Source of the DNA: Planctomycetota bacterium
GTDB lineage: Bacteria; Planctomycetota; UBA11346
Direction: 5' to 3'
Assembly (NCBI GenBank): GCA_022841245.1
Contig: JALHRW010000008.1
Span: forward strand, 1 to 61,135
DNA length: 61,135 nucleotides
Shown here: piece after piece, positions 26,855 through 55,795 of the stretch
Layout of the letters: each line of letters opens with the position of its first letter
Position numbering within the stretch: position 1 is the stretch's first letter
The notes under the pieces: generated by a model
What the model was told of the DNA's origin: nothing
The model's database searches: none
What the model saw: only the letters and a program-made list of their open reading frames with translations
Program-made: the position numbers and the translations under genes

Positions 26855-27439
26855 TTACGCCCCGATCCCCCGCGCACTGCTCCAAGGCCACTGCTCAGCC
26901 GCCTCCACCAACCCCGCCGCGACCGGGTTCTCCTCAATATACCTGACCGTCCTGGCAAGATGGTCGCTGTCGCGGATCCATCGGTCCCAGTAGTCGCGTT
27001 GCCAGAGCGGCCCGTTTCCGCCGACCACCTTGCGGATACTGCGGCTGGAGCAGGACTTCCACGCTTCGACGATGGTGGTCAGGCTCTGCCCTTCGGCGAC
27101 CTCGATGCAGACATGGACGTGATTGGGCATGACCACATAGGCCAGGAGCCGGTAATCCTCGCCGTGCCGGTGCCGCCAGTGCTGGATCACGGCTTGAGCA
27201 GCCGATTCCTCTCGCAGTAAGCAGGCGCCATGACCGGCGTCGATCCAGGCTTCGATGCGCAGGCGCAGGGCGTGCTGATCGGGTCGGCCATCCCGATCCG
27301 GCGGCAGGTCCTGTTTCAGGCGTTCCAGGGCCTCGGCGGGCAGGCTGTCGGCAAGGCGGTAGGTCAGGGCCTGGATGCCGCCACCGAGGTCCCAATGCGG
27401 GAGGAAGCCGCGATCATGGCGTTGGCGGGGGGAAGCCAT
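26855..27439 (-). CDS. REP-associated tyrosine transposase (RAYT)
   Basis: 194 aa single-strand-specific Y1 HUH endonuclease family member, which nicks and moves REP palindromes. The HUH motif is in 'VVMPNHVHVCIE' and the catalytic Tyr is likely in 'TVRYIEENPVAAGL', the family's C-terminal signature. The family 'GPLWQRDYWDRWIR' motif is also present. Start ATG 27439 ('ASPRQRHDRGFLPHW') fits the family opening; a longer frame would run through the right repeat. It is bracketed by 50-bp inverted REP-like repeats. Appears intact. Confidence 0.93.
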   Translation of the reverse strand: MASPRQRHDRGFLPHWDLGGGIQALTYRLADSLPAEALERLKQDLPPDRDGRPDQHALRLRIEAWIDAGHGACLLREESAAQAVIQHWRHRHGEDYRLLAYVVMPNHVHVCIEVAEGQSLTTIVEAWKSCSSRSIRKVVGGNGPLWQRDYWDRWIRDSDHLARTVRYIEENPVAAGLVEAAEQWPWSSARGIGA

Positions 27440-51316: not shown

Positions 51317-51333
51317 CCCGCCATTGCCCCTGG

Positions 51334-51488
51334 GTTCGTGGTTCGTAGTTCGTGGTTCGTGGTTCCGATCGGACCGCGCCCGAGCCACTCCATGTCCGAT
51401 AGGCAACGATCGGCTCCAGACGCTGGCACGCACGTTTGATCTGGTTGCAGGGTGCGGAACCACGAACCACGAACCACGAACCACGAAC
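51334..51488. repeat. Heptamer inverted-repeat element 1
   Basis: Left arm 51334-51366 is four heptamers GTTCGTG (one reads GTTCGTA) plus GTTCC. Right arm 51456-51488 is its inverted copy (CACGAAC units), 32 of 33 positions matching. The 89-bp spacer has no frame of note. It fills the gap between atpC and rnd. Same architecture as the element at 54205-54347. Confidence 0.9.
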
Positions 51489-53463: not shown

Positions 53464-54195
53464 CTATCCGGAGGCGCCCTCTACGGCCGGATCCTCCGGT
53501 GTTTTACCGTCTTGCAGCGCAAGCCAGCGTCCATCCACCAGCACCTCCGCCGGTCCGAACCTGGCCTTGTAGGTCATCTTGGCGCACCCCGCGACCCAGA
53601 AGCCGGAGTACCACCAGCGCAGACCTTGCCGTGCCGCCTCGGCGATCTCGGCCATCGCCAGGACGGTGCCGAGGCCACGGTCGCGCTCGGCCGGATCCCA
53701 GTAGCAGTACACGCTGCTCCAGGCATCGCCGACCACGTCGCACAGGGCGACGCCGAGCAGCCGGCCGTCGGCGGTGCGCGCGTGCAGCTCGCCGCCGCTG
53801 ATGCCGGCGTCCTCGGTCATGAAGCGGGTCGGTGGCTCGTCATCCGCATCGCCATGCACCGTCTCCTGGTAGCTCCGCCACAACGTCAGGCGCTCGTCAT
53901 CGATCCCGCGCGGCTGCCAGGTGAAGGCGAGGTCGGCGTTGCGTCGCCACGCCCGCCGCTGATCGCGTCGCGGCGTGAAGCCGGCCACCGCCACGCGGAT
54001 CGGCTGGCAGGCTTCGCAGCCCTCGCAGGTCGGGCGGTAGAACATCGCCCCGTTGCGGCGGAAGCGGTTGTCGAGCAGCACCCGGTACAACCCGTCGTCG
54101 ACCTCGTCGTCGACGTGGAAGGCGTGGAAGCGCCGCTCCGGCAGATACGGGCACGGCCCGGCGTCGATCAGCGCTCCTCGTATGCTGGGCATCAT
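53464..54195 (-). CDS. bpt: Aspartate/glutamate leucyltransferase (Bpt-type)
   Basis: 243 aa. Transfers an amino acid from aminoacyl-tRNA to protein N-termini, marking them for ClpAP-type degradation. The N-terminal Cys-rich motif 'CPYLPERRFHAF' and 'FYRPTCEGCEACQPIRVAV', plus C-terminal GNAT-fold elements ('RDRGLGTVLAMAEIAEAAR', 'LRWWYSGFWVAGCAKMTYKARF'), match the Ate1/Bpt family. Starts ATG 54195 or 54192 (GTG 54201 also in frame). The heptamer repeat's left arm lies directly upstream of the start. Confidence 0.92.
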   Translation of the reverse strand: MMPSIRGALIDAGPCPYLPERRFHAFHVDDEVDDGLYRVLLDNRFRRNGAMFYRPTCEGCEACQPIRVAVAGFTPRRDQRRAWRRNADLAFTWQPRGIDDERLTLWRSYQETVHGDADDEPPTRFMTEDAGISGGELHARTADGRLLGVALCDVVGDAWSSVYCYWDPAERDRGLGTVLAMAEIAEAARQGLRWWYSGFWVAGCAKMTYKARFGPAEVLVDGRWLALQDGKTPEDPAVEGASG

Positions 54196-54204
54196 TGCCA
54201 CCAG

Positions 54205-54347
54205 GGTCCGGGGTCCGGGGTCCGGGGTCCGGGGTCCGGACGCGTCGACACGGAGTATGACGAAAGGCGCAGAGCGGATGGTGACGGGGCCTGGTCTGGT
54301 TGCGTCGCTGCTAGGGACCCCGGACCCCGGACCCCTGACCCCGGACC
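54205..54347. repeat. Heptamer inverted-repeat element 2
   Basis: Left arm 54205-54239 is five GGTCCGG heptamers. Right arm 54315-54347 inverts 33 bp of it with one mismatch (one unit CCTGACC). The 77-bp spacer holds TCTGGTTGC, a 9-mer also present 7 bp before the right arm of element 1. It fills the gap between the bpt start and the glyA stop. Confidence 0.9.
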
Positions 54348-54361
54348 TTCAGCGGCAATGA

Positions 54362-55639
54362 TCAGTAGATCGGGAACTTGTCGCACAGCGCCCGGGCCTC
54401 GGCCTTCGCCTTGGCCAGCTTCGCCGCGTCGTCCCGGCCCTTGAGCGCGGCATCCATGATGCGCGCGACCTGCACGCACTCGGCGACGCCGAAGCCGCGG
54501 CTGCACACCGCCGGGGTGCCGATGCGGATGCCGCTGCCCTGCTGCGCCGGCTGGGTGTCGAAGGGGATCAGGTTCTTGTTTACCGTGATCCCGACCTCGT
54601 GCAGCTTGTCCTCGGCCTGCTTGCCGGTGACGCCCTGGCTCATGACGTTGAGCGAGAACAGGTGGTTGTCGCTGCCGTCCGAGACGACCTGCCAGCCGAG
54701 CCGCTTGAACTCCTCGGCCATGGCGCTGGCGCTGGCCTTGACCCGGCCCATGTACTCGGCCCATTCCGGGCGCAGCGCCTCGCCGAAGGCGGCGGCCTTG
54801 GCGGCGATGACGTGCATCAGCGGGCCGCCCTGGATGCCGGGGAACACGCGGCTGTTGACCTTCTTCATGTGCTCGGCGCTGCGCGCGAAGATCATGCCGC
54901 CGCGCGGGCCGCGCAGGGTCTTGTGCGTGGTCGTGGTGACGAAGTCGGCGTGGCCGAAGGGCGACGGGTGCAGGCCGGCGGCGACCAGGCCGGCGATGTG
55001 CGCCATGTCGACGAAGAGCAGGGCGCCGACCTTCTTGGCGATGGCGGCGAAGGCGGGGAAGTCGAGGGTGCGCGAGTAGTTCGACGCGCCGGCGATGATC
55101 ATCTTGGGCTGGAACTCGACCGCGATGCGCTCGACCTCGGCCATGTCGATGCGGCCGGTCTCCTTGGATACGCCGTAGCTCTGGATGGTGTAGTCGAGGC
55201 CGGAGAAGTTCAGCTTGTAGCCGTGGGTCAGGTGGCCGCCGTGGTCGAGCGACATGCCCAGGACCTTGTCGCCCTTCTGGAGGCCGGCGGCCATGTAGAC
55301 GGCCATGTTGGCCTGCGAGCCGGAGTGCGGCTGGACGTTGCAGCCGTAGTCGGTCTTGAACAGCTGCTGGGCGCGCTTGATCGCCAGTTCCTCGGCCTGG
55401 TCGACGAATTCGCAGCCGCCGTAGTAGCGTTTGCCGGGATAGCCTTCGGCGTACTTGTTGGTCAGCAGCGAGCCCTGCGCTTCGAGCACCGCCGTCGAGA
55501 CGATGTTCTCGGAGGCGATCAGCTCGATGGTGTGCTGCTGGCGGTCGGCTTCGCGCTGGATGATGGCGGCGAGATCGGGATCGCTGCTGGCGAGGGGACG
55601 GGGGGCGGTGAAACGGGAGGCGGGGGCGGGGTTGGACAT
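54362..55639 (-). CDS. glyA: Serine hydroxymethyltransferase
   Basis: 425 aa PLP enzyme interconverting serine and glycine with tetrahydrofolate, the main source of one-carbon units. '[11 protein letters not shown]', '[11 protein letters not shown]', '[11 protein letters not shown]' and the PLP-lysine site '[14 protein letters not shown]' are all present. The loop '[12 protein letters not shown]' has Asn where most have Ala. ATG 55639 has a GGGAG site 7 bases upstream; the leader carries a ZTP riboswitch, so expression should rise when folate-dependent purine synthesis stalls. Confidence 0.97.
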
Positions 55640-55757
55640 CGGGCATCTCCCAGTCGGGGGTTGTGGATGCCCAGGCGCGCGGCGGATACGTCGGTGACTC
55701 CCTCGCGGTTGCCCGCGTCCAGCCCGGCGGGCCGTCAGCGCCAGTCGTCACCGATGC
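55640..55757 (-). promoter_or_regulatory. ZTP (pfl) riboswitch controlling glyA
   Basis: On the minus strand, stem halves TCGGTGAC (55754-55747) and GTCACCGA (55698-55691) close a domain holding GACTGGCG and GAGGGAGTCACC. It is followed by CGCGCCTGGGCATCC (ending at 55665), the conserved ZTP/pfl pattern. GGGCATC of that last part (55672-55666) can instead pair with GATGCCC (55647-55641), covering the end of the GGGAG ribosome site and the start-codon spacer. This suggests ligand-dependent release of translation. glyA is a known target of this riboswitch class. Confidence 0.85.
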
Positions 55758-55795
55758 GCGGGAGGATGCCAGCCGAGCCCCCGGCTCAAGCGCCA

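Follow-up and report, generated by a model that had tools for sequence, protein, structure and literature searches.

Heptamer repeats recur in distant bacteria, and to our knowledge they have no accepted origin. One such locus lies between the genes glyA and bpt of a Planctomycetota bacterium, where two short arrays of a 7-nt unit face each other across a spacer, and it raises the question of what kind of element this is and how it came to be there. We analyzed it in the window (the whole stretch of 61,135 nucleotides in which it lies), in the genome to which the window belongs (G000, a 5.73-Mb draft in 548 contigs, 87.7% complete and 5.6% contaminated), and in related genomes, including G001 from the same genus, part of whose sequence was read. 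All compared genomes are draft assemblies, and repeats were found at several contig ends. The reading that we prefer, with a probability of roughly one half, is that the glyA-bpt element belongs, as one of many copies, to a dispersed family of mobile fold-back elements that are short and non-autonomous.

The element between glyA and bpt

Arm alignment and TRF reproduced the arms as an earlier note on this DNA had described them: GGTCCGG units form two inverted arms of 33 nt with one mismatch (97% complementarity) and 77 nt in between, with copy numbers of 5.1 and 4.7 at period 7 (Table 1). The element is longer than that note had it, because the outer tips CATTGCC and GGCAATG, which had been missed, belong to it. 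From tip to tip it exactly fills the gap between the bpt ATG (54192-54190) and the glyA stop codon (54364-54362), both on the minus strand. That it abuts the start of a transferase gene, as the note also had it, is correct, and Pfam supports the identity of the gene. Folded alone, the 168-nt strand reaches -114.5 kcal/mol as RNA (z -10.0) and -61.4 kcal/mol as DNA (z -7.5), with 0 of 200 shuffles equal in either case. An Rfam search gave no family matching the element, and no relative of its spacer was found among the other spacers or in sampled G000 and G001 sequence. As for G-quadruplex potential, judged by reading alone, the GGGGTCC arms of this element have four G3 tracts, and the GGTTCGT arms, which are commoner in the family, lack them.

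The window holds one more such element (element 1), and the 9-mer TCTGGTTGC, present in the spacers of both, had been put forward as a possible conserved spacer feature. It occurs in 0 of 32 other spacers, and some 9-mer is common to 31 of 561 spacer pairs; thus, it is not a conserved feature, and its presence in the two window spacers looks like coincidence. Nor is spacer length conserved, a possibility raised along with it: across elements it ranges from 13 to 227 nt, and the sequences are mostly unrelated.

Table 1. Coordinates of features in the window and of loci compared between G000 and G001.
Feature	Position	Strand	Remark
Element, tip to tip	54193-54360		168 nt; outer tips CATTGCC/GGCAATG
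Left outer tip CATTGCC	54193-54199	+	Directly adjoins bpt start codon; read from sequence
Left arm, GGTCCGG x5	54205-54239	+	33-nt core 54205-54237
Spacer	54240-54314	none	75-77 nt
Right arm, 4.7 inverted units	54315-54347	-	One mismatch
Right outer tip GGCAATG	54354-54360	-	One base from glyA stop codon; read from sequence
bpt, arginyl/leucyl-tRNA-protein transferase	53464-54192	-	Downstream gene; Pfam ATE_N, ATE_C
glyA, serine hydroxymethyltransferase	54362-55639	-	Upstream gene; Pfam SHMT
ZMP/ZTP riboswitch (Rfam RF01750)	55662-55758		Upstream of glyA
Element 1, GGTTCGT arms	51322-51488		Arms 51333-51365 and 51457-51488; between atpC and rnd
Element 1 tip CATTGCCCC	from about 51322		
Y1 transposase (RAYT-like)	26927-27160		Palindromic hairpins nearby
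Junctions occupied in G001 too	glyA-bpt, sufB-sufC, L036, L047, L059_7438, L075, L033_2924, L038, L054_8157		9 of 19
G000 sites unoccupied in G001	L059_2599, L061, L065, L055, L035, L042, L057, L058, L066, window 51333		10 of 19
AAGGCGG arms in longer CAATGGCGTTGCGTTAAG element (G001)	L180:8560, L186:3231, L186:7467, L193:3117		

A dispersed family with near-fixed arms

The family to which both elements belong, with the heptamers GGTCCGG, GGTTCGT and GGTTCGG, is dispersed through G000: the pattern GRTYCGK x3.7 gave 193 matches in the 5.73-Mb genome (overlaps included, <=2 mismatches) versus 0 for the reversed control. Details come from a sample of ~1.03 Mb, ~18% of the genome, which was chosen partly for array hits and is rich in copies. 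Here, 120 arrays have period 7, and no other period from 4 to 12 has more than 6. All 34 arm pairs <230 bp apart are convergent; a 35th has its arms 301 bp apart, and orientations other than convergent begin at 912 bp, which leaves every pair <900 bp convergent. Arm length is nearly fixed, with 66 of 88 arms exactly 33 nt, and about 13 arms are solitary. Of 68 paired arms, 29 have CGCA at the inner end, and an outer tip was recognized at 35. The tip GGGGCAATG occurs 45 times in the sample (reversed control, 1) and 122 times in the whole genome (reversed control, 9). An outward ATG lies <=9 nt away at 17 of 68 element ends, a count made without a formal control. A separate class of unpaired CGCTGGT-type arrays in G000 spans 20-195 nt, versus the 31-33 nt peak of the paired class. 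At three further loci (L065:7069-7241, L060:2122-2212 and L078:19256), REP-like hairpins GGGAGGGTCGAGC..GCTCGACC are followed by GGGGCAATG; there the tips lie between hairpins, the reverse of the arrangement in the heptamer elements.

The same geometry recurs in G001 with other sequences. Its arrays are of GGCGTTC, AAGGCGG, GGAGGCT, GAGCTTA/T, GGGGTTA and GGCGGGG units, many in inverted pairs; period 7 again dominates (99 arrays versus <=5 for other periods), and for several unrelated heptamers array length peaks at 31-33 nt. The earlier note had suggested a copying process that preserves arm length and inversion, and both are indeed kept while the sequence differs. GTYCGNN arms themselves are patchy among related genomes: many in G000, G003, G004 and G017, few in G019 and G058, one match in G034, and none in G001, G002 or G015 (genus of G004). 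In viral contigs, GGTTCGT arrays were found in six, none of these with a tip, and GGTCCGG arrays in none. One 13-kb contig of that collection (L283) carries several unrelated heptamer arrays, of CAATATT, GTTCGGG and TCGATGC types.

Comparison of junctions shows both empty and repeatedly occupied sites. The glyA-bpt junction of G001 holds a GGGGTTA element that has the same tips; in the congener G003 the two genes overlap and the element is absent. Among 19 comparable G000 junctions (both flanks found), nine are also occupied in G001, always by another heptamer and with spacers that are not alignable; at sufB-sufC, three species have three heptamers (GTTCGTG, GTTCGGC and GTCCGAG). The nine include L038, which has only one clear arm in G001, and leave out L035 and L057, which have imperfect repeats there. 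Conversely, the L177_9153 element of G001 corresponds to a G000 site without an element. Chance co-occupancy has p ~0.001 for 4 of 7 junctions and 2e-5 for 9 of 19 if one junction per kb is assumed over ~95 kb of collinear sequence with nine G001 elements, a base rate that comes from collinear length and not from gene calls. If the base rate is instead set at 20%, 9 of 19 has p 0.007.

These junctions bear on an explanation in which the element acts in cis within its operon: the hairpin and an SD-like tip (GGGGCA before the ATG) would adjust how the transcript is processed or translated, with selection maintaining a hairpin at certain junctions even as its sequence drifts. The exact fit into the glyA-bpt gap, the very stable RNA fold and the co-occupied junctions, several with tips at similar offsets, are consistent with this. 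However, more than half of the compared sites are element-free in G001, and in five of the 34 pairs one arm is GTTCGGG and the other GTTCGTG, which puts a mismatch into every repeat. Moreover, a regulatory hairpin needs neither a 7-nt period nor a fixed 33-nt arm. We consider this cis-acting explanation unlikely.

Copying of units and the search for an enzyme

Seven dispersed G000 copies share an 83-nt spacer and align across arms and spacer, with unrelated flanks, which means that the whole unit was copied. Copying of arm-spacer-arm units was thus borne out for one family in G000 and no further, since the remaining spacers there are unrelated to each other. Partner arms are usually of the same class, GTCC or GTTC (majority-unit distance 0.235 versus 0.634 shuffled). 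Within the GTTCGNN class, the earlier idea that an arm is copied from its partner finds no support: partner arms differ by 0.214 versus 0.195 when shuffled, and they have a variant unit in common no more often than by chance.

Local processes act too. The spacers of L065 (G000) and L182 (G001) align with native coding sequence, so arms are able to flank resident DNA; at L065:682-947, an arm is apparently in frame in a Mur-ligase-like gene. In G003, L128:894-1044 is one continuous array whose units change gradually, from GTCCGGG by way of GTCCGAG and GTTCGAG to ATCCGAG. At L262 (G001, C202), whose site matches L054_8157, a whole GTTCGGC element, arms and spacer, stands in three near-identical tandem copies. 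It might be proposed that all elements grew in situ, by slippage from a chance seed and local template switching for the inverted partner, with no mobility. The graded L128 array, the tandem duplications at L158 and L262 that take in arms, and the greater likeness of units within one arm than of partner arms (0.29 versus 0.49 differences) fit such growth. Against it stand the nearly fixed copy number of paired arms, which the unpaired CGCTGGT arrays lack, the recurrence of one unit throughout the genome and the presence of one spacer at seven sites; we judge it quite unlikely. Distinctly improbable, too, is an enzyme that would write heptamer arms of fixed length at chosen junctions or exchange them there, giving each junction a species-specific 7-base unit.

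Inverted termini and high copy number could also point to a MITE moved by a DDE transposase that duplicates its target. In G001, four AAGGCGG copies are enclosed by a more extensive terminal repeat, CAATGGCGTTGCGTTAAG, with what by eye are direct repeats of 9-10 bp on either side; these look like a MITE carrying a heptamer element. However, the L173 copy of the same AAGGCGG arm-spacer unit is without the outer repeat, so the MITE-like repeat looks like a carrier, and the window's family has no duplication at its boundaries: over 34 elements, no target-site duplication was detected at arm or tip boundaries (flank similarity 3.97 versus 3.97 shuffled). A MITE origin is accordingly very improbable. 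The tip GGGGCAATG was also considered as an insertion target and rejected, as only two places per genome have tip pairs <=30 bp apart, some of them enclosing other sequence.

The associated protein family that had been suggested was not found among the Y1 transposases and reverse transcriptases searched in selected genomes. Y1/RAYT transposases (PF01797) have two copies in G000, near which lie hairpins and, in the fetched flanks, no heptamer arrays; these transposases were rejected as neighbors of the arrays in G000. In other searched genomes, only the PF01797 loci L205, L215 and L222 are near arrays, and those are of other units. Reverse transcriptases show no consistent link to arrays and were rejected likewise, with one locus in G001 and one in G017 near a heptamer array of another unit. 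The least probable reading is that heptamers are added at DNA ends by a reverse transcriptase or telomerase-like enzyme: the dominance of period 7 and the different heptamer at every co-occupied junction would suit templated synthesis, but reverse transcriptase matches number 0-2 per searched genome, some of them in G002, which is without GTYCGNN arms, and the loci in G000, G002, G003 and G004 have no array in the fetched flanks. The sampled 1.03 Mb of G000 contains no autonomous copy, i.e., a transposase between such arms; beyond the 34 pairs, consecutive convergent arms occur in only two cases, 301 bp and 12.5 kb apart.

Altogether, the dispersed high-copy family with a control of 0, the convergent pairs, the 33-nt arms and the seven copied units argue for a mobile family, as do the element-free congener sites, the patchy GTYCGNN arms, the outward ATGs and the AAGGCGG unit with and without its outer repeat. 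The element-free sites on which this rests are glyA-bpt in G003, L177_9153 in G000, and L059_2599, L055, L042, L058 and window 51333 in G001. We count against it that no enzyme or target-site duplication was found, that most spacers are unique and two are native, that solitary arms exist and that the assemblies are drafts. We infer mobility by way of a trans-acting enzyme that would recognize the arms. Each copy consists of two convergent arms of ~33 nt, or 4.7 heptamers, which enclose a spacer of 13-301 nt and often bear CATTGCC/GGCAATG caps; different heptamers would define subfamilies. A single strand is predicted, from folding, to form one long hairpin. At least some copies probably spread as complete units, arms and spacer together, and copies would persist chiefly at junctions between genes. 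By analogy with REPINs, a transposase acting on single-stranded DNA would be the best-fitting, if unproven, enzyme type. Secondarily, the hairpin may affect the glyA-bpt transcript.

Relation to known repeats and significance

Our literature search returned no description of these heptamer units or tips, and one may exist elsewhere. The closest known system is the GGGAATC heptamer repeats of Xanthomonas, which form convergent pairs and for which G-quadruplexes have been discussed (Rehm et al. 2015; PMC4692102). Like these, the elements here are dispersed, built of a tandem 7-nt unit and paired convergently at short distance (34/34 <300 bp). In contrast, their units are not of the GGGNATC type, their arms are near-fixed at 33 nt rather than 2-26 units, many of them have the tip GGGGCAATG, G001 combines several unrelated heptamers in one genome, and congeners have different heptamers at the same junction. 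Since GTTCGTG and GAGCTTA units are without G3 tracts, quadruplex formation of the Xanthomonas type is unlikely to be the property that unites them.

Structurally, the closest are REPINs, inverted pairs of REPs that go with a RAYT (PMC3116915). These have two inverted end modules, a variable middle, one hairpin and high copy number, and are intergenic without coding capacity, as here; there the arms are palindromic REPs and not tandem heptamers, and neither RAYT copy in G000 has a heptamer repeat in its fetched flanks. The TAACTGA repeats of Beggiatoaceae (MacGregor; PMC4679880) are also heptamers that form short arrays, in many cases immediately before a start codon, but they are direct repeats with only one indirect repeat reported and a single unit sequence.

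This family shows near-fixed arm length whatever the sequence, the copying of a whole unit, and junctions that are frequently occupied in congeners too, by different heptamers. As a genome-wide repeat family with counterparts in congeners, it makes bacterial heptamer repeats easier to test, and the origin and movement of 7-nt repeats could become answerable via strain collections and a genetic assay.
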